Virus record (IMG/VR): IMGVR_UViG_3300025645_000053
Location: 1-64,000 of that record
Reading direction: 5' to 3' (one strand)
Origin: a virus
DNA: 64,000 nt
Part shown: positions 18,916 through 59,987 of the stretch, one piece after another
Layout: each line of letters begins with the position of its first letter
Position numbering within the stretch: position 1 is the first letter of the stretch
Translations under genes and position numbers: made by a program
The notes under the pieces: generated by a model
What the model was told of the DNA's origin: nothing
Seen by the model: the letters and a program-made list of their open reading frames with translations, nothing else
The model's database searches: none

Positions 18916-19701
18916 ATGTTGTTAAACTATATTACATTCATAACAGCAATAGTAATTGCACTTGTTGCAGCTTACTTCTCAATAGCAGGTTTGTCCGCTA
19001 TCTTTGCAGGAGCTGCAATATCAGTTATAATAATGGCCAGTGTTTTAGAGCTTGGCAAATTAGTTGCAGCAACATGGTTGCATCTTGAGTGGAAATGTGT
19101 TACAATAGGTATTAAGATATACTTATTAGTTGCGGTGGTAGTTCTTATGTTAATTACAAGTATCGGTATCTTCGGTTATTTGTCAAAAGCATATCTTGAA
19201 CAAACCTCCGGTAATGCTGGTGTTGCGATTGAAGTGTCTCGTCTTGAGAAAACAATCGGATCAGAACAAAAGCGTTTAGATTCGGTTGATTCTCAGTTAG
19301 GCGCACTTGATGCAGCATTGGATAAGTATATCGAACTTGGGTATGTTACAAAAGGACTTCAAGCTCGTACAGCACAAAGCGAGCAACGTGTGCAGTTGGA
19401 TTCGTTGAGAACAATGTCAATGGACAAACTGTTTAAACTAAATAATGAATTGTATGAATATACATTAGAAGATGCAAAGTTTGAAGCTGAACTTGGTCCC
19501 ATTAAATATATCGCAGAAATGCTTTATGGTAATGATGCTGAAGACAAGTATGGCAGCGCAGTTCGTCTAATGATATTTATGCTTATATTTGTGTTTGATC
19601 CGCTTGCTGTTATTCTTTTGATTATCTCGGCTGGAAGACTGAGCAAGTCTAAAGAAGCGCCAAGCATCGTTTCGTCGGATCAGATCTTAAACTTGGAGTA
19701 A
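18916..19701 (+). CDS. Membrane protein with a coiled-coil central domain
   Basis: A 261-residue protein with hydrophobic segments at about residues 3-22, 26-45, 58-84 and 213-235, and a soluble coiled-coil part between (SRLEKTIGSEQKRLDSVDSQ). Likely an inner-membrane protein with a periplasmic or cytoplasmic helical domain. Its stop and the gene 62 start share a base. Late promoter upstream. Function unknown. Confidence 0.65.
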   Translation: MLLNYITFITAIVIALVAAYFSIAGLSAIFAGAAISVIIMASVLELGKLVAATWLHLEWKCVTIGIKIYLLVAVVVLMLITSIGIFGYLSKAYLEQTSGNAGVAIEVSRLEKTIGSEQKRLDSVDSQLGALDAALDKYIELGYVTKGLQARTAQSEQRVQLDSLRTMSMDKLFKLNNELYEYTLEDAKFEAELGPIKYIAEMLYGNDAEDKYGSAVRLMIFMLIFVFDPLAVILLIISAGRLSKSKEAPSIVSSDQILNLE

Positions 19702-20084
19702 TGATGAATCCTTTTGATTATGTAAATTCCATTACGTTAAGCAAACGTAATATTATGGTAACACCAGAGGATGAGAAAGGTTATGCAGCCTTTCTTATCA
19801 ACCGTGGCCTTTCGCAGTTCCAAGATACTATCTTTTATGCAAATGAAATGAATCGGTATCACAAATTGGACAATAAACTGCAGTATCAGTTTCTTATTAA
19901 CATTGTACGGAAACGGAAACGTTTCTCTAAATGGGCCAAGGCTGACACAGCTGATGCTGATATAATTGAAGCAATTAAGATTGTATACAATTATAGTAAT
20001 GATAAGGCTAGACAAGTTGTCGGACTTTTATCAAAAGATCAAAAGTCCGCGCTGCTCGAAAAAATACATAAGGGTGGAACTTAA
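19701..20084 (+). CDS. 62: Clamp loader small subunit gp62 with a replaced 3' end
   Basis: A 127-residue protein; KRFSKWAK is the landmark shared with T4 gp62. It partners gp44. Its C-terminal third, after RKRKRFSKWAK, is not the original one: a second, divergent version of the same C-terminus lies at 20722-20907, just before regA. The DNA around the shared KRKRFSKWAK codons is nearly identical in both copies, marking the recombination point. The gene is intact and probably functional. It overlaps the end of the minus-strand HNH gene by 4 bp. Confidence 0.85.
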   Translation: MMNPFDYVNSITLSKRNIMVTPEDEKGYAAFLINRGLSQFQDTIFYANEMNRYHKLDNKLQYQFLINIVRKRKRFSKWAKADTADADIIEAIKIVYNYSNDKARQVVGLLSKDQKSALLEKIHKGGT

Positions 20085-20617
20085 CGGTGCTTACACTTTG
20101 CTCCGTGATAGCGCGCGTATGTTGCAAGTTGAACACTTTCGCCGCAATGTTCACAATTGATTCTAGGACGGTTCAGCGCGGCTTGAGATTGCAGCTTTTT
20201 AGTTTCGTCTGTAGTGATAGCCCCTAATCTTGATCCGTCCTTATTAGCATACAGTTCTTTCATGGATTTTTTGAATTTGTTAGATCTTTCATCAGTCCAT
20301 TTAGGAAGAGTCATGCCTTTAGTTGGCGTCGGATTTGTTTTCATTCTAGCAGCGACACGTTTTTTAACATGTTCTTTAGTTTGCTTCTTTCCAGTTAAAG
20401 CTGCAGAAACGGCTAGTCTTCTAGCTTCTTCGCCGCTTATTTGGCCTGAAAGAGCTTTATACGCAATTAGGTCTTGCAAACGATTATGCTTTTCGTATAG
20501 AGCAAGGTGGGCAAGAGCGTGTTGTTCTACAGTCAGTTTTATTAAATTTGACTGATCGTCGCTACCGCCAGCATGGCGCGGGATGATGTGATGTTTGTGA
20601 TATATAGTATTAGGCAT
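20081..20617 (-). CDS. HNH homing endonuclease inserted between 62 and regA
   Basis: A 178-residue protein. HNH core: HKHHIIPRHAGGSDDQSNLI with the later HALAHLALYE; then basic helical DNA-binding repeats (GKKQTKEHVKKRVAARM and a KWTDERSNKFKKS unit, NUMOD-like) and a C-terminal zinc-finger-like CEHC...HGAKC. It reads against all its neighbours and splits gp62 from its old 3' end. Start follows AAGGAG. A minus-strand late promoter and a 7-bp hairpin lie in its leader. Confidence 0.88.
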   Translation of the reverse strand: MPNTIYHKHHIIPRHAGGSDDQSNLIKLTVEQHALAHLALYEKHNRLQDLIAYKALSGQISGEEARRLAVSAALTGKKQTKEHVKKRVAARMKTNPTPTKGMTLPKWTDERSNKFKKSMKELYANKDGSRLGAITTDETKKLQSQAALNRPRINCEHCGESVQLATYARYHGAKCKHR

Positions 20618-20652
20618 GTAGCTGCTCCTTACAGTTATTGTGTTTAGGGACA

Positions 20653-20692
20653 GAGGTTATTGGCGTAACCTCTTGTTCTGATATTATTTATA
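20653..20692 (-). promoter_or_regulatory. Late promoter and leader hairpin of the HNH gene
   Basis: On the minus strand, TATAAATA (plus 20685-20692) is followed by a hairpin GAGGTTA/TAACCTC (plus 20653-20672, 6-nt loop), then AAGGAG and the ATG. Late-only expression is usual for T4-type homing endonuclease genes. Confidence 0.65.
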
Positions 20693-20714
20693 ATAATATG
20701 AATTTCGGATAATG

Positions 20715-20722
20715 TATAAATA
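20715..20722 (+). promoter_or_regulatory. Possible late promoter at the edge of the gp62 remnant
   Basis: TATAAATA on the plus strand just before the duplicated gene 62 sequence. It could restore transcription of regA beyond the insertion, or be fortuitous in AT-rich DNA. Confidence 0.35.
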
Positions 20723-20907
20723 TTGTCAGGAAGCGGAAACGTTTCTCTAAATGGGCTAAGCAAGACAAGACCAATTTAGAAATGATTGAAGTGATTAAGA
20801 CGTATTACGGGTATTCAAACGACAAAGCCCGTCAAGTACTATCTCTTCTTAACAATGAACAGTTGAATGAACTACAGCGGAAGGTTGACCATGGTGGAAC
20901 AAAATAA
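20722..20907 (+). pseudogene. 62: Left-over original 3' end of gene 62
   Basis: An in-frame segment (from 20728) encoding RKRKRFSKWAKQDKTNLEMI and on to GGTK, stop at 20905. It is a divergent second copy of the gp62 C-terminus (for example YSNDKARQVLSLL versus YSNDKARQVVGLL). It lacks the N-terminal two thirds and a start codon. Its end overlaps the regA start exactly as intact 62-regA junctions do, so it is the ancestral 3' end displaced by the HNH insertion. Confidence 0.85.
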
Positions 20908-21307
20908 ACAAGTAGAGTGGACTCCAAACACAATGTTGGAAATTACACTAAATGAACCCGACGACTTTTTAAAAGTACGCGAAACATTAACACGAATTGG
21001 TGTTGCATCGCAACTTGATAAAAGATTATATCAGTCTTGTCACATATTACATAAACAAGGAAGATACTTCATTGTACACTTTAAAGAATTATTCATTCTT
21101 GATGGCAAAGCATCAAACTTATTTGAGAATGATATTCAACGACGCAACACGATCACAATGCTGTTATCAGATTGGGGATTAATTAATGTTGTAAATCCTG
21201 ATGAGGCAAAAGACACTGCTCATCTAAGACAAATAAAAATCATCTCTTTTAAAGAAAAGGATGAATGGGATTTACAGCCAAAATACAATATTGGAACAAA
21301 ATCCTAA
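20891..21307 (+). CDS. regA: Translational repressor RegA
   Basis: A 138-residue RegA protein: LEITLNEPDDFLKVRETLTR, LYQSCHILHKQGRYFIVHFK and LLSDWGLI match T4 RegA, which binds start regions of early mRNAs and blocks translation. I chose the ATG 8 bp after GGAAGG, giving a 14-residue N-terminal addition relative to T4, whose RegA starts at MIEITL; the internal MLEITL ATG has no ribosome site. It overlaps the gp62 remnant. Confidence 0.92.
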   Translation: MVEQNKQVEWTPNTMLEITLNEPDDFLKVRETLTRIGVASQLDKRLYQSCHILHKQGRYFIVHFKELFILDGKASNLFENDIQRRNTITMLLSDWGLINVVNPDEAKDTAHLRQIKIISFKEKDEWDLQPKYNIGTKS

Positions 21308-21312
21308 TACTG

Positions 21313-21320
21313 TATAAATA
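21313..21320 (+). promoter_or_regulatory. Late promoter (TATAAATA) for hsp20
   Basis: Exact TATAAATA 6 bp after the regA stop. Transcription from it would start at the foot of the first leader hairpin and give a leader of about 120 nt before hsp20. Confidence 0.75.
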
Positions 21321-21329
21321 AAAAGATTG

Positions 21330-21440
21330 GGGTTACTATAAGGTTTTATGGTAACCCGCAATAACCGCGATGCATCTTTGATGGTCGCACCTTAATAAAA
21401 CGGATGCCGAAAGGATCCACGCACCTTGCTAATTAGGAGG
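21330..21440 (+). ncRNA. Four-hairpin leader of hsp20, ROSE-type RNA thermometer candidate
   Basis: Hairpin 1 (21330-21357): 12-bp stem with GGTT loop. Hairpin 2 (21367-21388): GCGA/TCGC plus CATC/GATG around TTT. Hairpin 3 (21402-21418): GGAT/ATCC and CC/GG around a GAAA tetraloop. Hairpin 4 (21424-21440): CCTTGCT-AATT-AGGAGG, in which TTGCT pairs with AGGA leaving one G bulged and CC pairs with GG, so the whole Shine-Dalgarno AGGAGG is masked. This U(U/C)GCU-over-SD pairing is the defining feature of ROSE elements, which control bacterial small heat-shock genes. Confidence 0.75.
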
Positions 21441-21445
21441 CAAAC

Positions 21446-21901
21446 ATGTCGAACTACGATAAGTATGATTACAGCACACAAAACCCTTTAGAAAAAATCT
21501 TTTACGATTCAGGATTCCCTTCCAATCTTTTTGATACTTTGCTATCAAAAGTAGGTAATACCACAACTTCATTCCCACCTTATGACATTATAAGCGAAAT
21601 AAATGAAGAAGACAAATCGTATCGCGTGATTATTTCTATGGCGTTAGCTGGCTTCGATAAAGATGAAATTAATATCGAGCAAAAGTCGAATATCTTAACA
21701 ATTTCTTCTGAAGGTAAATCGAAGAAGAAAGACGTAAAATACATTCAGAAAGGTATTTCTAAAAGAGCCTTTGAAAATAAATTTAAGCTATCACAATACG
21801 CTGTAATTGCTAATGCAACTATGGAAAATGGTATGCTTGAAGTATTAATTGACTTTGAAATTCCTGAAGAACTGAAAGCAAACAAAATTCAAATTAAATA
21901 A
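21446..21901 (+). CDS. hsp20: Small heat-shock protein Hsp20
   Basis: A 151-residue alpha-crystallin family chaperone. The core domain starts near PPYDIISEINEEDKSYRVII and includes the conserved ALAGFDKDEINI and the A-x-x-x-N-G-x-L motif (ATMENGMLEVLI). The C-terminus lacks a clear IxI tail beyond KIQIK. Hsp20 genes are common in marine T4-like phages and are thought to protect phage or host proteins during infection. The Shine-Dalgarno site is masked by a hairpin; spacing to ATG is 5 bp. Confidence 0.95.
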   Translation: MSNYDKYDYSTQNPLEKIFYDSGFPSNLFDTLLSKVGNTTTSFPPYDIISEINEEDKSYRVIISMALAGFDKDEINIEQKSNILTISSEGKSKKKDVKYIQKGISKRAFENKFKLSQYAVIANATMENGMLEVLIDFEIPEELKANKIQIK

Positions 21902-22290: not shown

Positions 22291-23286
22291 TTGACTGAAT
22301 TCTATACCTCCGTCGCCCGCTACGGCAATTCGCTTTTATATCGTGGATACAAAGGCAAGCATAAAGTACGCGAAAAGATAAAGTTCAAACCTACCTTATA
22401 CCTCAAAGATAACGAAAGTGAAACAAAAGCACTTGATGGCGTTTCAGTTTCTCCAATGCAATACTCTTCAATGCGCGATGCAAAAGAATTTATTGAGCAA
22501 TACAAAGATGTGCCTAACTTTGAAATATACGGCAATCGTAATTACATAGTTCAATACATTCAAGAAAAGTTCCCTGGTAATATTGCGTTTGATATGGACA
22601 ATGTTAATGTTGCGGCTATTGACATTGAAGTTGTTGCTGATGAGTTTCCACATGCCGAACAGGCACTATATCCTATTGTTTCAATTGCAATGATGTCTAC
22701 TCAAGATAGCATGCGACGTGTATGGGGATTACCTAACTATAAAAATACTCGTGATGATGTAATTTATTATCACTGTAAGAACGAAGCCGAACTGTTAATG
22801 AAGTTCATAACACATTGGTCAAATCCTGAATATACTCCAGATATCGTTACAGGCTGGAATACTCGATTCTTTGATACACCTTATATTATCAATCGACTTG
22901 CTAAAACTTTAGGTATTGAATTTGCCAAAAAGTATTCTCCATGGGGTTTGATAAATGAACGCATGGTTACGGTTAACGGTCAAAAGCAACAGAGCTACGA
23001 AGTAACAGGATTGCCTGAACTTGATTACATGGAGTTATTTAAGAAGTTTACTATTAATACATTAGGCGCTCAAGAATCATATAAACTTGATCATATTGCA
23101 AACGTTGTGCTTGGCGATCGGAAATTGTCATACGAAGAAAACACACAGATGTATGCTTTACTACGCGACGCCGAAGGCTGTAACCCTGACGAGAAACTGA
23201 CCAAGCTAGAAGACATGGACGAGTTACAACGCACGTGTCTTCTTCGTGATCGTGTACGCGCCTTACGCTTGTCTCGAGGGGTTTAG
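22291..23286 (+). CDS. 43: DNA polymerase gp43, fragment 1 (exonuclease part)
   Basis: A 331-residue N-terminal piece of a family B polymerase. Exo I is AAIDIEVVADE (Asp111, Glu113) and Exo II is GWNTRFFDTP. Polymerase homology runs to about YEENTQMYALLRD; the last 37 or so residues (from AEGCNPDEKLTKLEDMDE) do not look like polymerase and are rich in Leu and Arg. Exo III and all polymerase motifs are on other fragments. The start is TTG after ATGGAG. The C-terminal coding end overlaps the minus-strand HNH gene by 24 bp. Confidence 0.9.
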   Translation: MTEFYTSVARYGNSLLYRGYKGKHKVREKIKFKPTLYLKDNESETKALDGVSVSPMQYSSMRDAKEFIEQYKDVPNFEIYGNRNYIVQYIQEKFPGNIAFDMDNVNVAAIDIEVVADEFPHAEQALYPIVSIAMMSTQDSMRRVWGLPNYKNTRDDVIYYHCKNEAELLMKFITHWSNPEYTPDIVTGWNTRFFDTPYIINRLAKTLGIEFAKKYSPWGLINERMVTVNGQKQQSYEVTGLPELDYMELFKKFTINTLGAQESYKLDHIANVVLGDRKLSYEENTQMYALLRDAEGCNPDEKLTKLEDMDELQRTCLLRDRVRALRLSRGV

Positions 23287-23976
23287 TTTGCAATTATCAT
23301 CATGCCAGCGCTTTAAGTTAGAATATGTGGTTACTACATTACAGTGTTGACATTTTCGAGTTTTATGATTTATTTTCCCACGGGCGATTTCATCACTAAA
23401 TTGGCCAAGGCTGTCGATATAAATGCCCCACCCTTTTGCCGACATCTTGACTGCGCCTTTATACGCTCTTATAAGCGAATTAATATCGTGTTGGCTAATC
23501 ACGTCGGCATGCTTGGTATGGAAGTCCATACGGGTCCCTTTAAAGACGGTTGTACTGTTTTTAAACGTGTATGTGTGATCGTCATAGTTGGGATTAGCCT
23601 TTCCGCTAGAGCGTATAGAACACGCTTCTATAAACCGGCGTTTATGCGCTTCATAAATAGTTGATGAGAATTTTAGACCTAGCCGTTGGGTATATCCAAA
23701 GTGAAAAAACGTATGAAGCGCGAATGTCATTTTACATGTGTCTTTGCCAATAGTGAATTTAGTTAATAGCAAATGGGCGATATAATGCTCTCTAAATGTA
23801 TATGGGAGCATTATTGTTCCACCAAAACTGTGGGGTAGCACATGATGATTTTCATGCTCAGCCGACGTATAAGTACGTTGTTCACTGACTATTTTATTTG
23901 CTAATGCTAAATACGCCCGATAATACTTGTTGCATTTAAAGTTATTATAATTTAAAAATTCGTTTACCATTGACAT
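23263..23976 (-). CDS. HNH homing endonuclease in gene 43
   Basis: A 237-residue protein read against the polymerase. HNH core ENHHVLPHSFGG with FREHYIAHLLLTK; a C-terminal zinc-finger-like CQHC...RWHDDNC close to that of the HNH protein at 20.1 kb. It separates polymerase fragments 1 and 2, and its end overlaps the tail extension of fragment 1. Two possible starts (MSMVNEF) are six bases apart; AGAG lies upstream. A TATAAACT on the minus strand could act as a weak late promoter. Confidence 0.85.
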   Translation of the reverse strand: MSMVNEFLNYNNFKCNKYYRAYLALANKIVSEQRTYTSAEHENHHVLPHSFGGTIMLPYTFREHYIAHLLLTKFTIGKDTCKMTFALHTFFHFGYTQRLGLKFSSTIYEAHKRRFIEACSIRSSGKANPNYDDHTYTFKNSTTVFKGTRMDFHTKHADVISQHDINSLIRAYKGAVKMSAKGWGIYIDSLGQFSDEIARGKINHKTRKCQHCNVVTTYSNLKRWHDDNCKLNPSRQA

Positions 23977-23998
23977 TACATCTCTATTAGTTTATAAT
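23970..23998 (+). promoter_or_regulatory. Host-type promoter for DNA polymerase fragment 2
   Basis: TTGACA (23970), 17 bp, TATAAT (23993). The -35 lies within the first codons of the opposing HNH gene. It shows that fragment 2 is expressed on its own. Confidence 0.88.
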
Positions 23999-24025
23999 AC
24001 TATATATAACATTAAGGATCTTACT

Positions 24026-24715
24026 ATGAACATTGATTATTTACTTAGCTCTAATCTAGATAATTTATCTGACGATGAATTGATTGCCTTAGATGCTGAG
24101 CTTACGGCAGAAGCTAATCTGCTCGCCGGATACAAAGGAATTGATTATAATATAGTCGATATTGAGTTAATTCTTCGCATGGATGATAAACTTCAATTGA
24201 TTGGTCTGGCTGCGACGATGGCTTATAGCGCTGGTGTTAATTACGGTGATACATTAGGCACAACTGCTATTTGGGATGCTATCATCTATCGTGATTTGTG
24301 TTCTCGTAACATGGCTGTACCACCTAACAAGCATAAGTTCAAAGATGCGTTTGAAGGCGGCTGGGTTAAAGCTCCTAAGGTTGGTCTACATAATTGGGTA
24401 GTATCATTCGATTTGGCATCGCTTTATCCCCACTTAATAATGCAAGCAAACATATCTCCAGAAACCTTAGTTGAAGGCGATCGTATAGACGGTCTTACAG
24501 TTAATAACTTGTTGGAACGTAAAAGCTTTGAGGTACCAGACGGTCGAGCGTTATGTCCTAATGGAGTTATGTTTGATACCGAAAAGCAAGGTGTCATTCC
24601 TGCGCTAATCAAAACCAAGTATGCCGCTCGTAAACGTATCAAAAAAGAAATGCTTTCAGCGCAACAAGAATTGGTTAACGTCGAGGAGGAAATGAAACGT
24701 CGAGGTATCACTTAA
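24026..24715 (+). CDS. 43: DNA polymerase gp43, fragment 2 (Exo III, palm motif A)
   Basis: A 229-residue central piece. Residues 1-35 (MNIDYLLSSNLDNLSDDELI onward) are a non-polymerase extension; polymerase homology starts at YKGIDYNIVDIEL, which holds Exo III (Asp45). Motif A is SFDLASLYPHLIMQ (Asp129). The end, after KTKYAARKRIKKEM, is a charged helix stopping at KRRGIT. It has its own promoter and ribosome site (AAGGAT). The 3'-5' exonuclease site therefore needs fragments 1 and 2 together, and the polymerase site needs fragments 2 and 3. Confidence 0.9.
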   Translation: MNIDYLLSSNLDNLSDDELIALDAELTAEANLLAGYKGIDYNIVDIELILRMDDKLQLIGLAATMAYSAGVNYGDTLGTTAIWDAIIYRDLCSRNMAVPPNKHKFKDAFEGGWVKAPKVGLHNWVVSFDLASLYPHLIMQANISPETLVEGDRIDGLTVNNLLERKSFEVPDGRALCPNGVMFDTEKQGVIPALIKTKYAARKRIKKEMLSAQQELVNVEEEMKRRGIT

Positions 24716-24870
24716 TGATACTTCACTTTGACTCATTGTCTAATAGCGATTTCACGGAGTATTTACGCAAAGCAAACGCTTTACATCGGCTTGGTCACTT
24801 TCGACATTTAACACCGCGTGAGTTAGCAAAACATATTTATGATACTGAAATGAAAAATAAATGCGAATAA
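24715..24870 (+). CDS. 51-residue ORF coupled to polymerase fragment 2
   Basis: Its ATG overlaps the fragment 2 stop (TAATG). The product, starting MILHFDSLSNSDFTEYLRKA and ending with a basic/acidic helix, has no family I know. It carries an LSNSDF pattern vaguely like the LSDDEL segment at the starts of fragments 2 and 3. It may be a linker or assembly peptide, or cargo of the mobile insertion. Confidence 0.4.
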   Translation: MILHFDSLSNSDFTEYLRKANALHRLGHFRHLTPRELAKHIYDTEMKNKCE

Positions 24871-24894
24871 CTGCAGTATTAAGAATGTGATATG

Positions 24895-24902
24895 TATAAA
24901 TA
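24895..24902 (+). promoter_or_regulatory. Late promoter (TATAAATA) for the Vsr-like endonuclease
   Basis: Exact TATAAATA about 70 bp before the endonuclease ATG. It covers an upstream in-frame ATG, which supports the later start. Confidence 0.7.
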
Positions 24903-24912
24903 ATAATGAACA

Positions 24913-24935
24913 GAGTGGTATTGGTAGTACCACTC
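24913..24935 (+). other. Hairpin in the endonuclease leader
   Basis: GAGTGGTA/TACCACTC, an 8-bp stem with a 7-nt loop (TTGGTAG) at the start of the late transcript. Leader hairpins recur before the homing endonuclease genes of this phage. Confidence 0.6.
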
Positions 24936-24967
24936 CATCCTCAGACATAACCAACAGGAAATTACTC

Positions 24968-25711
24968 ATGTCCATTACTATTTATCAACACCAGTTAGAC
25001 ACTCATTTAGAAACTGTAATATCATCATTAAAAGCAGGCGAGTCATTACTTCAGCTATGCAAGAAATACAGCATAAACTATCATGCCTTTCGTAAAGTGA
25101 TAAAGCGTGATTATCCAACGTTGTTGTCAATGAAAAAGTCAAAACAAATGCGTGAAAGAATGTCTGCTTCAACTCGGAAGTTCTCACCTGACGAAGAGCA
25201 ACATATAATTGAACGCTACATGGCCGGCGAAAGCGCATATCAGATTCTTAAAGACTATGATGTTGTAGTCAATGTTATATACAGCATTCTAAAAAGAAAC
25301 AACATTCCTAAGAATAACCAGTCCAGTTATTGGACTGATGAAATGCGAGAAAAGCAACGGCAGTTGTGCTATGATGGTATTGTTGGCATACATGCTCAAG
25401 GTGATGGTGCATATCGTTTCACTAAACCTGAGAGAGACTTTGCTAAATGGTGTGAAGATAACACCATTGCATACGAAAGACAATTCCAAATAACAAAAGG
25501 CACTCACCGTTATGATTTCATTATAAGCGATACTAATATCTTAGTAGAAATTGATGGTGAATATTGGCATAGCACACCAGAACAAACCGCAAAGGACCGT
25601 TCGTTTGAGGAATATGCAATTGACAACGGTTACGCCGTTATTCGCTTTACTGATAAAGAAATGCGTAAAACAAAAAATAATTGTTTACAAGCACTTAAAA
25701 GTTTGATATAA
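24968..25711 (+). CDS. Vsr-like (EDxHD) homing endonuclease in gene 43
   Basis: A 247-residue protein. Residues 1-110 hold two helix-turn-helix-like units (ESLLQLCKKYSINYHAFRKV and ESAYQILKDYDVVVNVIYSI). The C-terminal part is a very-short-patch-repair-type nuclease: YERQFQITKGTHRYDFII then VEIDGEYWHSTPEQ. This is the I-Bth0305I-type family first linked to fractured genes with split inteins in marine phages. It lies between polymerase fragments 2 and 3 and carries the promoter of fragment 3 in its last codons. Confidence 0.82.
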   Translation: MSITIYQHQLDTHLETVISSLKAGESLLQLCKKYSINYHAFRKVIKRDYPTLLSMKKSKQMRERMSASTRKFSPDEEQHIIERYMAGESAYQILKDYDVVVNVIYSILKRNNIPKNNQSSYWTDEMREKQRQLCYDGIVGIHAQGDGAYRFTKPERDFAKWCEDNTIAYERQFQITKGTHRYDFIISDTNILVEIDGEYWHSTPEQTAKDRSFEEYAIDNGYAVIRFTDKEMRKTKNNCLQALKSLI

Positions 25712-25712
25712 T
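25684..25712 (+). promoter_or_regulatory. Promoter for DNA polymerase fragment 3
   Basis: TTTACA (25684), 17 bp, TATAAT (25707), overlapping the 3' end of the Vsr-like gene. GAGGAA precedes the fragment 3 ATG. Confidence 0.8.
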
Positions 25713-25739
25713 AGAACATTACAATATGAGGAATACACT

Positions 25740-27092
25740 ATGGATTTAAAAACACTAAGCGACGATGAGCTGCGAGCTTTACATTATGAATACAGTAAAA
25801 AGTATTCAACGCTTGACAACCAACAAATGAGTATCAAAATCCTAAACTTATTGGGCCTCTAATCAGGAATGATTAGATGAGAATCGGGTGAACTCAGGGA
25901 AGGCTTTAATATGCTAATCCTGAGCCAAGACCTTTATTATGTAAAGGTAAGGTGCAACGACTATCCGAAAGGAGTAGAGATCAAGTGGTCTCGAAGCGCC
26001 CGACAGCCAGACCGGCTGATGATATAGTCTGATCTTATACGAAAGTATAAGCTGGGTTCGTCCCGGGATATGATTAACGCTCGTATCCGAACATCATGAA
26101 TGAACAGTTTGTATGGTGCGATGGGTTCAGCTTACTTCAGATATTTTGATTTGCGAATGGCTGAAGGCATTACATTGTATGGTCAGTTATCAATTCGTTG
26201 GGCTGAGAAATCGTTTAACAACTTCATTAATAAAATCATGGGTACTACCAAATGTGATTATGTTATTGCTGCTGATACTGATTCTAATTATTTAGATTTT
26301 GGCCCACTTGTCGAAAAACTCGGATTAGCAAAAACTAATGATACTAAAGGTATTGTTGATATTATCGACAAAATGTGCAGCGATCAGTTTGAACCAATGA
26401 TTGCTAAATGTTATGACGATCTTGCTAAATACATGCATGCCTATCAGAACAAAATGGTTATGGAACGTGAAGTAATTGCTGATCTTGGTATATGGACTGC
26501 AAAGAAACGTTATATACTAAATGTACATAACTCTGAAGGTGTATCATTTAAAGAACCTAAACTAAAGATCATGGGTATCGAAGCAATTAAATCTTCAACA
26601 CCAGCAATATGTCGTGATGCTTTAAAGAATATCTTCAAGGTTATAATGACTGGTTCTGAGCTTAAAACCCGTAAGGCTATTACTGACTTTCAAGAGTTCT
26701 TTCATGCTCAGCCGCCTGAAGCAGTATCGTTTCCACGTGGAGTTTCTGATATTGTTAAATGGCGCGATGGTGACGGATATAAGTCAAGATGTCCTATACA
26801 TGTACGCGGCGCTATAATGTATAATGTTGGTATTGAGCAGAAGAAACTTAAAAAGTATACTGCAGTTCGTAATGGCGACAAAGTTAAGTTCTGTTACCTT
26901 AAGTTGCCTAATCCCATCAAGGAAAATGTTATTTCGTTTCCTGATTATTTACCGCCTGAGTTAAATTTGAATGCGTATGTTGATTATGATAAGCAATTCA
27001 GTAAAACCTTTATAGATCCAATTGAACCTGTACTTAAGGCTATCGGTTGGTCAGTTGAAGAGCAGTCGAGTTTGGAGGATTTCTTCGGTTAA
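25740..27092 (+). CDS. 43: DNA polymerase gp43, fragment 3 (motifs B and C), spliced
   Basis: Two exons, 25740-25843 and 26099-27092, give 365 residues. Residues 1-17 (MDLKTLSDDELRALHYE) are a non-polymerase extension; YSTLDNQQMSIKIL then follows. Splicing restores motif B as K-IL-M-NSLYG (Kx3NSxYG), which neither exon has alone. Motif C is AADTDSNY. The C-terminus ends SSLEDFFG, consistent with a clamp-binding tail. The three fragments sum to 925 residues against 898 for T4 gp43. Confidence 0.9.
25844..26098 (+). other. ORF-less group I intron in polymerase motif B
   Basis: A 255-nt intron. The 5' exon ends in U (25843) and the intron ends in G (26098). GGG (25853-25855) pairs with exon CCU in P1 with the U.G wobble at the splice site; UUAUU just before it pairs with the 3' exon AAUGA (P10). 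P2 is CTAATCA/TGATTAG with a GGAA loop (25859-25876). P7 pairs GACTA (25959) in GCAACGACTA with TAGTC in GATATAGTC (26025). P9 is CTTATAC/GTATAAG with a GAAA loop. No reading frame inside. Confidence 0.93.
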
Positions 27093-56474: not shown

Positions 56475-58106
56475 ATGAGAGATATTTTAGTTACTAAACG
56501 CGACGGAACAAAAACTCCACTTGACATTAACAAAATACATGATGTAGTAGAATTTGCTTGTGCAGGCTTGACCGGTGTTGCACCATCTGAAGTCGAAGTA
56601 AAAAGTCATATCCAATTCTCAAATGGTATTACTACTAGTGATATTCAAGAAACTCTAATCAAATCAGCGTCAGAACTAATCAGCGAAGAATCACCTAACT
56701 ACCAGTACGTTGCAGGACGTTTAATTAATTTCCATTTACGGAAACTAGTCTACGGCCAATTCGATCCTCTAGACCTCATTGAGCATTATAAAAACAACGT
56801 TCTGTTAGGTTGGTACGATAAGAATCTTTATAACCAATATTCAAAAAATGATTGGGAATTTCTTAATTCAGTTATAAACCATAGTTTGGATTTCAACTTA
56901 ACATATGCTGCTATGGAACAGTTTAGAGGCAAATATCTTGTACAGAATAGGGTAACGAAGGAAATATTTGAGACACCTCAGATGCTTTATATGCTCGTAT
57001 CAATGACATTGTTTGCTGATTATCCAGTAGAAACAAGAATATCGTATGTTAAGAAATATTATAACCATATATCGAAAGGCAATATCTCATTACCTACTCC
57101 GATACTTGCAGGTGTAAGAACTCCTGATAGACAATTTAGCTCATGTGTATTGATTGAAACTGAAGATAGTCTTAACTCAATTAGCGCAACCAATGCTGCT
57201 ATTATTCGATATGTTAGTCAGAAAGCAGGTATCGGTATTGGCGGTGGTTCAATTAGAGCAACTGGTTCTCCTATTCGTAATGGCCAAGCATCACATACCG
57301 GTGTTATTCCTTTTTATAGAACATTTCAGAGTTCAGTAAAGTCATGTTCACAAGGCGGAGTTCGTGGCGGTGCTGCTACTTTATATTATCCGGTATGGCA
57401 TCTTGAAATTGAAGATCTTTTAGTATTAAAGAACAATAAAGGCGTTGAGTCAAATCGTTTACGTCAAATGGATTATGGCGTACAGTTTAACAAATTAATG
57501 TATGAACGTTTAATAACTAATGGTAACATTACATTGTTTAGCCCAAGCGATGTTCCTGGGTTATATGATGCATTCTTTGCCGATCAGGATAAGTTCAAAG
57601 AAATATACGAAAAGGCTGAACGTACTACTCATATACGAAAGATAACTGTTAAAGCACTTGACTTGTTTACTACCTATATTCAAGAACGTAAAGATACTGG
57701 TAGAATTTATCTACAGAATGTTGATAACGTAAATATACAAGGGTCGTTTAAACCTGAAGATGCACCAATCAAAATGTCTAATCTTTGCGTAACTGGCGAC
57801 ACTGAACTTGACATTATTGTAGATGGCATTTCCATGTTTAACGTGCCAATCATTGATGTTATAGGTTATGCTTGTAGAGCACGTGAAGTGAAGGTTAGTG
57901 CATATGATATTGAAACTAATACGTTTAAGTATAGCAAAGTCTCAAAAGGTGCGATGACTGGTCGGGACCGAGAGTTAATGGAAATCGAAGATGACACAAC
58001 AGGCAAAAAGGTAATATGCACGCCTGAACATCAAATATACACTAAGAACCGTGGATATGTTGAGGCTAGAAATTTAGTTGAAACTGATGAACTTTTTATA
58101 GGATAA
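56475..58106 (+). CDS. nrdA: Ribonucleotide reductase large subunit, N-part fused to N-intein
   Basis: Residues 1-437 are NrdA: an ATP-cone (VTKRDGTKTPLDINKIHDVV), the FSSCVLIE redox Cys, GIGIGGGSIRATGSPI, and the sequence up to KMSNL. Residue 438 (Cys) opens a 106-residue N-intein: CVTGDTELD (block A), then KKVICTPEHQIYTKNRGYVE (block B with TPEH). The intein half ends at DELFIG. The C-half is at 58896. Trans-splicing is needed to make NrdA. Close in pattern to marine NrdA split inteins. Confidence 0.93.
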   Translation: MRDILVTKRDGTKTPLDINKIHDVVEFACAGLTGVAPSEVEVKSHIQFSNGITTSDIQETLIKSASELISEESPNYQYVAGRLINFHLRKLVYGQFDPLDLIEHYKNNVLLGWYDKNLYNQYSKNDWEFLNSVINHSLDFNLTYAAMEQFRGKYLVQNRVTKEIFETPQMLYMLVSMTLFADYPVETRISYVKKYYNHISKGNISLPTPILAGVRTPDRQFSSCVLIETEDSLNSISATNAAIIRYVSQKAGIGIGGGSIRATGSPIRNGQASHTGVIPFYRTFQSSVKSCSQGGVRGGAATLYYPVWHLEIEDLLVLKNNKGVESNRLRQMDYGVQFNKLMYERLITNGNITLFSPSDVPGLYDAFFADQDKFKEIYEKAERTTHIRKITVKALDLFTTYIQERKDTGRIYLQNVDNVNIQGSFKPEDAPIKMSNLCVTGDTELDIIVDGISMFNVPIIDVIGYACRAREVKVSAYDIETNTFKYSKVSKGAMTGRDRELMEIEDDTTGKKVICTPEHQIYTKNRGYVEARNLVETDELFIG

Positions 58107-58117
58107 ATTGCTAAAAA

Positions 58118-58174
58118 GGTAGGTAGAGAGATTTCAGTTTGTATAAATAAACTATAGAAATAACTCTACCTACC
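58118..58174 (+). promoter_or_regulatory. Inverted repeat enclosing a late promoter before the GIY-YIG gene
   Basis: Perfect 11-bp arms GGTAGGTAGAG (58118) and CTCTACCTACC (58164) flank TATAAATA (58143-58150). Read-through RNA from nrdA would fold a long hairpin abutting GAGG, the endonuclease ribosome site; RNA started at the late promoter lacks the 5' arm. This is the logic known for T4 I-TevI control. Confidence 0.75.
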
Positions 58175-58186
58175 AATGAGGCAATC

Positions 58187-58906
58187 ATGTTTATAGTTTA
58201 CGAGCATAAGAACACTTTAAATAATAAAAAATATATCGGATACACGTCAAAGACAATGAACGAAAGATTACACAAACATTACATTAACGCGATTTCAGGA
58301 ATGGATAATCATTTCTATAAAGCGATACGTAAATATGGTTTGGAAGTCTTTGAGTCGAAAATATTAGAAACTGTTGCAACACAACTTGAAGCAACTAATT
58401 TAGAAGTTAAACATATCGAACTTAACAATAGTTTTAAGGAAGGTTATAACATGACAAAAGGTGGGGACGGTGGTTATGTTGTTCCAGCCGAAAAACGTGA
58501 TGATTGGATCAAAAAACTAACAGCATCCTCGACCAAAGAAAACAATGGTATGTGGAGTGGAATATCAGATGAAACCATATTATCATATGCTAGAGAGTTC
58601 TTTTTAAGCGAGGGTCATTCTAGTGGAATGCAATCGTTTATTAATTATGGCGTAAAGAAATATTCCATACCAAAATCATATTCAAAAAATAGGTTCGGCG
58701 GCAAGACATTAAAACAGGCATATTGTGAAAAGTACAATGTTAACCCAACTGAACTAAAATATGTCAAATCTGCTGCTCACCGCGAAAAATTAAAAAACGC
58801 GAATATTGGTAAAAACTGGTATTCAAATGACAATTTAAAAACATCATACCAAGCGAACTCACTCCCGGGAAACGATTGGTATAAAGGAAGAAATTATGGG
58901 TATTAA
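58187..58906 (+). CDS. GIY-YIG homing endonuclease between split nrdA halves
   Basis: A 239-residue protein. N-terminal GIY-YIG domain: FIVYEHKN, KKYIGYTSK, an Arg in NERLHKH, then FYKAIRKYG and a Glu in LEATNLEVKHIE. The C-terminal half has DNA-binding repeats (KNNGM-type and REKLKNANIGKNWYSNDNLK, NUMOD-like). It lies in the gap of the fractured nrdA gene and overlaps the C-half by 11 bp. Confidence 0.9.
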   Translation: MFIVYEHKNTLNNKKYIGYTSKTMNERLHKHYINAISGMDNHFYKAIRKYGLEVFESKILETVATQLEATNLEVKHIELNNSFKEGYNMTKGGDGGYVVPAEKRDDWIKKLTASSTKENNGMWSGISDETILSYAREFFLSEGHSSGMQSFINYGVKKYSIPKSYSKNRFGGKTLKQAYCEKYNVNPTELKYVKSAAHREKLKNANIGKNWYSNDNLKTSYQANSLPGNDWYKGRNYGY

Positions 58907-59987
58907 AATAAGAACACTTGATTACACTGAAAACGTGTATGACATTACCGTTCCTGAAACTAGTAACTTTTTTGCTAATGGTATACTAATACACAATTGC
59001 GCAGAAATTGATTTGCCGACAAAACCTCTTGATGATATTAATGATGAATCCGGTGAAATAGCATTGTGTACGTTATCAGCAATTAATTGGGGTAACATTA
59101 GTGATCCTTCTGAGTTCGAAGAGATATGTGACTTGTCAGTTCGGGCTTTAGATTCATTACTTGATTATCAAGATTATCCAGTTAAAGCAGCATACATTGC
59201 AACTATGGGTCGTCGTCCACTTGGTGTTGGTATTAATAACTTAGCGTATTGGCTTGCTAAAAACGGTTATACTTATCAAGGCATTACTGAAGAAGGATTG
59301 TCACATTTACATGAATGGCTTGAAGCATGGTCTTACTATTTGATTAAATCTTCTATCAATCTTGCTAAAGAAAAAGGGGCGTGTGAATGGTCACGTGAAA
59401 CTAAGTATTCACAAGGTTTATTTCCAATTGACACTTATAAGAAAGATGTTGATTCATTAGTTGGTAATAACTTAAAAATGGATTGGGCTGCATTACGTAA
59501 TGAAGTTAATGAACATGGGATTCGTAATAGTACTCTTATGGCTATCATGCCTTCTGAAACTTCATCTCAAGTAATTAACTCGACGAACGGTATTGAAGCG
59601 CCAAGAGCCTTAGTTTCAATCAAACAATCAAAAGATGGTATATTGGCACAAGTTGTTCCTGAGATCCGTAAGTTAAAGAATAAATACGATTTATTATGGG
59701 ATCAGAAATCACCTGAAGGTTATTTAAAAATATGTGCGGTCATTCAGAAGTTTGTTGACCAAGGCATAAGTGTTAATACATCGTATAACCCTAAGCACTA
59801 CGAAGATGGCAAAATGCCTTTAAAAACTCTGATTCGTGACTTATTAACTTTTTATAAATATGGAGGCAAACAGCTATATTATTTTAATACTTATGATGGT
59901 GCTGGCGAATTAACATACGAAGAAGCCAATGATAATCCTGTCAGTGAAGAATTGGATGAAGATGATTGCCCGAGTTGCAAATTGTGA
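58896..59987 (+). CDS. nrdA: C-intein plus ribonucleotide reductase large subunit C-part
   Basis: Residues 1-34 are the C-intein: MGIKIRTLDYTENVYDITVP, then NFFANGILIHN (blocks F and G, terminal His-Asn). The +1 residue Cys35 opens the C-extein CAEIDLPTKPL, so the splice junction regenerates the conserved NLC motif of NrdA, whose Cys is a redox-active residue. The NrdA end carries CPSC, the thioredoxin/glutaredoxin-reacting pair. Own ribosome site (AAGGAAG). Confidence 0.93.
   Translation: MGIKIRTLDYTENVYDITVPETSNFFANGILIHNCAEIDLPTKPLDDINDESGEIALCTLSAINWGNISDPSEFEEICDLSVRALDSLLDYQDYPVKAAYIATMGRRPLGVGINNLAYWLAKNGYTYQGITEEGLSHLHEWLEAWSYYLIKSSINLAKEKGACEWSRETKYSQGLFPIDTYKKDVDSLVGNNLKMDWAALRNEVNEHGIRNSTLMAIMPSETSSQVINSTNGIEAPRALVSIKQSKDGILAQVVPEIRKLKNKYDLLWDQKSPEGYLKICAVIQKFVDQGISVNTSYNPKHYEDGKMPLKTLIRDLLTFYKYGGKQLYYFNTYDGAGELTYEEANDNPVSEELDEDDCPSCKL

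Follow-up and report, generated by a model that had tools for sequence, protein, structure and literature searches.

Repression of heat-shock gene expression (ROSE) elements are RNA thermometers in the leaders of small heat-shock genes, and their signature is a U(U/C)GCU sequence with a bulged G (PMC11182007) that pairs imperfectly with the Shine-Dalgarno (SD) sequence in the last hairpin. Short two-hairpin ROSE-like elements of Pseudomonas ibpA were shown to melt only in the SD hairpin and to switch reporters (PMC3669281), and the E. coli ibpA leader is likewise a proven thermometer. In phages, the known RNA thermometers are those of lambda cIII and of SP-beta blyA, the latter a fourU element that a 2024 paper counts as only the second thermometer in a phage genome while reporting a sigma-70 one as a further candidate (PMC11182007). 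The small heat-shock gene hsp20 is one of the core genes present in all 16 cyanophage genomes compared in one study, where a scaffolding role was only guessed (PMC3037559), and chaperone activity has been reported for the S-ShM2 protein (PMC5028025), but regulation is not mentioned in the phylogeny paper (PMC3827213). We found no paper reporting ROSE elements in phages in the open literature searched, subscription papers not being covered, and this agrees with an earlier note on this locus, which knew of no such element in T4-like phages.

To determine whether a phage hsp20 leader carries a ROSE element, we analyzed a 64,000-nucleotide stretch (the window) of a 77,923-base IMG/VR virus record, IMGVR_UViG_3300025645_000053. 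The record is from a T4-like phage, as gp23 capsid, clamp loader gp44/gp62, regA, gp43 polymerase, and uvsX are present. The gene order is gp44, exonuclease, membrane protein, gp62, an HNH endonuclease on the other strand, regA, the leader, hsp20, a phrog_527 gene, and gp43. The 3′ part of gp62 appears twice (19701-20907), on either side of the HNH-like endonuclease gene on the minus strand (20081-20617), as if the endonuclease brought a second gp62 tail. Downstream, gp43 (22291-27092) is broken into at least three ORFs by an HNH-like endonuclease on the minus strand (23263-23976), an endonuclease-like ORF (24887-25711), and a group I intron (25825-26051, Rfam 98 bits), and the ribonucleotide reductase large subunit (56475-59987) looks split by intein halves with a GIY-YIG-like endonuclease ORF (58187-58906) between them. 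The features of the locus are as follows.

20867-21307, plus strand: regA, translational repressor, directly upstream of the leader (PF01818, E=1.5e-46)
21313-21320, plus strand: TATAAATA, T4-type late promoter -10 box, six bases after the regA stop; predicted start of transcription about 21326
21326-21362, plus strand: hairpin 1, 16 bp with a bulged G (21358) on the 3′ side, found only in this phage group
21367-21388, plus strand: hairpin 2, GCGAU-[G21372]-CAUC/GAUG-GUCGC, the same bulged-G design as ROSE hairpin I
21402-21418, plus strand: hairpin 3, GGAU-[G21406]-CC-GAAA-GG-AUCC, the conserved hairpin I of the phage ROSE element
21424-21440, plus strand: hairpin 4, the predicted thermosensing hairpin, CCUU[G]CU (21424-21430) paired with AGGAGG, loop AAUU, bulged G21428, U(U/C)GCU motif at 21426-21430
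21435-21440, plus strand: SD sequence AGGAGG of hsp20
21446-21901, plus strand: hsp20, small heat-shock protein of 151 aa (PF00011, 50 bits; phrog_432, E=6e-29)

The earlier note had described four consecutive hairpins, the last of which pairs the SD sequence with one bulged G, and this is what we observe. In hairpin 4, C21424 pairs with G21440, C21425 with G21439, U21426 with A21438, U21427 with G21437, C21429 with G21436, and U21430 with A21435, and this is the minimum-energy fold of that stretch alone. The leader as a whole folds better than all 200 shuffles (z -3.4), mostly because of hairpins 1-3. In the whole leader, however, the nearest-neighbor model gives hairpin 4 only about 10% and prefers a rival pairing that also hides the SD, while in two near-identical contigs (L004 and L005; L numbers denote the loci we collected) the single leader change, G21421A, removes that rival and raises hairpin 4 to 37-65% at 10-20 °C. 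Hairpins 2 and 3, a detail the note missed, each also have a bulged G after a 4-5-bp stem, the same design as hairpin I of the relatives. Hairpin 1 is not followed by a T run, so a terminator role was rejected.

Rfam alone does not recognize the element. No family reaches its cut-off in the leader, and with loose limits the only one of 4227 families listed is ROSE_3 (RF02523), in register with the AUG, at 10.8 bits and E=8.8 against a cut-off of 43 bits; by itself, that is a lead and not a proof. BLASTN of the leader and gene found no near relative among named phages, and the four contigs that carry a nearly identical gene and leader (L002-L005) are too similar to show covariation in hairpins 1 and 2, so these two hairpins are unsupported by comparison. 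We scanned with the gp43 N-terminus, which gave 66 loci. Those with an hsp20 upstream of gp43, at about 30% protein identity to that of the window, all have a bulged-G hairpin followed by CUUGCU or CUCGCU, a short A+U loop, and AAGGAG (or UAGGAG) before the hsp20 AUG, the exceptions being a locus cut inside hsp20 (L006/L011) and a remote, unrelated Hsp20 (L072). Named phages show the same, namely Melnitz-1, C48C1, S-CREM2, Syn1, the pelagiphage HTVC103P, Agrobacterium phage Atu_ph07, and Pseudomonas phage PA5oct. With a further 80 cyanophage-type loci, there are 74 distinct hsp20 leaders from phages as different as cyanophages, a methylophage, a pelagiphage, Atu_ph07, and PA5oct, and 68 of these have UYGCU facing the SD, preceded by a second hairpin that also has a bulged G. 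One of the 68 is E. coli ibpB from L080 (GenBank MG065691.1, Campylobacter phage A11a, UNVERIFIED), a record that contains the E. coli ibpA-ibpB genes with their ROSE elements and is thus contaminated with E. coli DNA. Of the six without the motif, one is the truncated gene (L006) and one is the unrelated Hsp20 (L072), three have ACGCU in place of UYGCU (L156, L159, and L160), and L149 has GUCGUCU facing AGGAGAC, which by our reading still pairs around a bulged G.

Among the relatives, Rfam ROSE_3 is matched at the hsp20 start of L027 (40.4 bits, E=8e-5), L073 (34.1), L017 (33.8), L117 (30.4), L058, L012, L150, L075, L141, L132, and L122, and nowhere else in those loci, although no phage leader scanned reaches the cut-off. 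The contaminating E. coli ibpA element gives ROSE_2 at 100 bits and serves as a positive control. In L058, a permuted phage tmRNA gene (942-1380) lies directly upstream of the late-type box, ROSE element, and hsp20, and in L141, a viral contig, two tandem glutamine riboswitch matches (38.9 and 27.9 bits, cut-off 35) lie on the minus strand (247-337) about 1.2 kb from hsp20.

Next, we wanted to determine whether the structure is conserved by compensatory change. MAFFT misaligned the SD side of hairpin II, so a small clean seed (A8) was used and extended by covariance model. A model from 8 cyanophage leaders (R1) finds non-cyanophage leaders such as Melnitz-1 (E=3e-5), PA5oct (4e-4), Atu_ph07 (0.004), and HTVC103P (0.005). 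In the 47-sequence alignment, 99% of cells pair and 10 of 13 pairs have changes on both sides, while 0 of 500 shuffles reach this and slid structures give 0-3 such pairs. Hairpin I carries most of this covariation and is the strong evidence. Hairpin II is held by the SD, so its variation is limited (UC to UU, C-G to U-G), and because the alignment was fitted to the structure, some of the changes counted there for outlier rows (L149, L156, and L160) may be alignment artifacts. A second model (R2), built without the window's group, L017, L067, L075, or any bacterium, finds the window at 21399-21448 (22.4 bits, E=0.0032 in 362 kb; E=2e-6 for the 201-base stretch), along with L017, L067, E. coli ibpB (0.0013) and ibpA (0.044), and L075, all at gene starts, and the first hit away from one has E=0.53.

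To examine whether the element has bacterial kin, we searched bacterial genome contigs with R2, which finds SAR11 chromosomal hsp20 leaders at E down to 3e-9 and many alphaproteobacterial ones. The SAR11 contigs L172, L177, L186, L190, and L225 carry the same two-hairpin element at bases about 1422-1482, and none of the three scanned with Rfam (L172, L177, and L186) was matched at E<1. The SAR11 loci have non-phage neighbors as far as we can read them, whereas L161, L162, and L229, filed under Rhodobacteraceae and Nonlabens assemblies, are T4-like phage contigs (regA, hsp20, gp43 order). The phage element thus belongs to a wider proteobacterial ROSE group that Rfam only partly covers. An Hsp20 tree is poorly resolved and does not settle how often phages took up the gene.

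As a test of specificity that does not start from hsp20, we scanned viral contigs for GATGCCTTCGGGGTC-N6-30-CTCGCTT. Of 80 loci with this pattern, 72 are followed by an Hsp20 ORF by HMM, two more are by reading (with SD AAGGGG), and six are cut off at the end of the stretch with an ATG in the right place. The late-promoter reading rests on position in relatives, because the count of TATAAATA in the window is not above chance (14 found, 9.8 expected). TAWATA occurs in the 42 bases upstream of the element in 112 of 134 distinct hsp20 leaders, compared with 12.9 in shuffles, and mostly at one fixed distance, so that late transcription would start near the foot of the first hairpin, as the note had proposed for this leader. 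In the window, hairpins 1 and 2 are placed between promoter and core.

From these comparisons, we conclude with good though not full confidence that the leader is a ROSE-type RNA thermometer. In this view, the phage late promoter at 21313 starts an mRNA at about the foot of hairpin 1, and in the cool cell the UUGCU strand of hairpin 4 holds the SD of hsp20 in a weak helix made of U-A, G-U, and a few C-G pairs with one bulged G. Warming would open hairpin 4 while the G+C-rich upstream hairpins stay closed, and ribosomes would then translate the chaperone, so that hsp20 mRNA is made routinely late in infection and protein is released when heat threatens folding and assembly. Melting in the physiological range, late transcription, and the benefit to the phage are inferred, and the note's proposal that the gene is translated only on warming likewise remains an inference. 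In-silico melting is not sharp, as the chance that the SD is open rises only from 0.0025 at 25 °C to 0.0125 at 42 °C for this leader and some ordinary genes of the window change as much or more, but E. coli ibpA also shows only a 2-fold change by this method, which therefore does not discriminate. The element is not peculiar to this phage and looks like a general phage trait. A temperature-gated leader in front of a core gene, conserved in phages of cyanobacteria, methylotrophs, SAR11, Agrobacterium, and Pseudomonas, would indicate when the protein is wanted, would bear directly on how ocean warming changes phage protein synthesis during infection, and would raise phage RNA thermometers from two or three examples to a widespread trait.

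An alternative, which we consider unlikely as the main function but which can coexist with the thermometer, is that the RNA works mainly as an operator for its own protein, with phage Hsp20 binding its leader and blocking translation until it is drawn away by unfolded protein, so that the signal is protein damage during infection and temperature is secondary. E. coli IbpA represses its own mRNA through the ROSE leader, where Arg93 cannot be replaced and position 34 must be aromatic (PMC10474464). In 72 distinct phage Hsp20 proteins, the Arg93 position is Arg in 66 and Lys in 6, and position 34 is Tyr or Phe in all; the window has Arg (GISKRAF) and Phe. Other residues needed in E. coli are not kept, however, since R97 is Asn in the window (position 98 is Lys) and K98 is Thr or Ser in most cyanophages, and Arg93 may be kept for reasons of fold. 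It is possible, though we hold this only tentatively, that across marine T4-like phages a core chaperone gene is under two-layer translational control, in which late mRNA is made in every infection but is held by a ROSE element that opens with heat and is also released when phage Hsp20 is titrated by misfolded, for example capsid, protein. This would be the first phage gene-control system known to us that reads the state of protein folding in the infected cell.

The remaining alternatives are very unlikely. A hairpin over an SD in a T4-like phage with a late promoter nearby recalls the stage switch of T4 gene e and soc, where a hairpin silences the gene on long early transcripts and is absent from late ones, but here and in nearly all relatives the late box is upstream of all hairpins, so late mRNA carries the whole element, and the UYGCU/bulged-G sequence is far more specific than a stage switch needs. 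Because SAR11 and other alphaproteobacterial hsp20 leaders carry the same element, it could instead be a passive remnant that came along when hsp20 was taken from a proteobacterium, yet it persists with compensatory changes while the Hsp20 proteins diverged to about 30% identity, and it sits at a fixed distance from a phage-type promoter. Other window genes also have predicted SD occlusion, but a chance hairpin over a normal ribosome site, the least likely of these, is at odds with the model match, covariation, and exclusive placement and is already refuted for the class, though not for this single allele.

Compared with the known phage thermometers of lambda cIII and SP-beta blyA, the element shares temperature-dependent access to a ribosome site in a phage gene, as inferred here, but the structural classes and genes are different; in the window only UU faces the SD, and not the four consecutive U of a fourU thermometer. 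It also differs from ROSE-G, defined by CUGCU with two facing bulged Gs (PMC12857270), as the motif here is UUGCU with one bulge. ROSE_3 is the only ROSE family matched in the phage leaders, with the hairpin pair and AUG aligned in register and the same bulged-G hairpin I, although at scores below the cut-off. The E. coli ibpA/ibpB elements (RF01832 and kin) have UCGCU facing AGGAG with a bulged G, and ibpA has more hairpins. The short two-hairpin elements of Pseudomonas ibpA (PMC3669281) have a stable hairpin I, a hairpin II with U(U/C)GCU paired to the SD, a free AUG, and a leader of about 60 bases, as in most phage relatives, whereas the phage versions follow a late-type TAWATA box and mostly have a UUCG loop in hairpin I, and this window has two extra hairpins in front.
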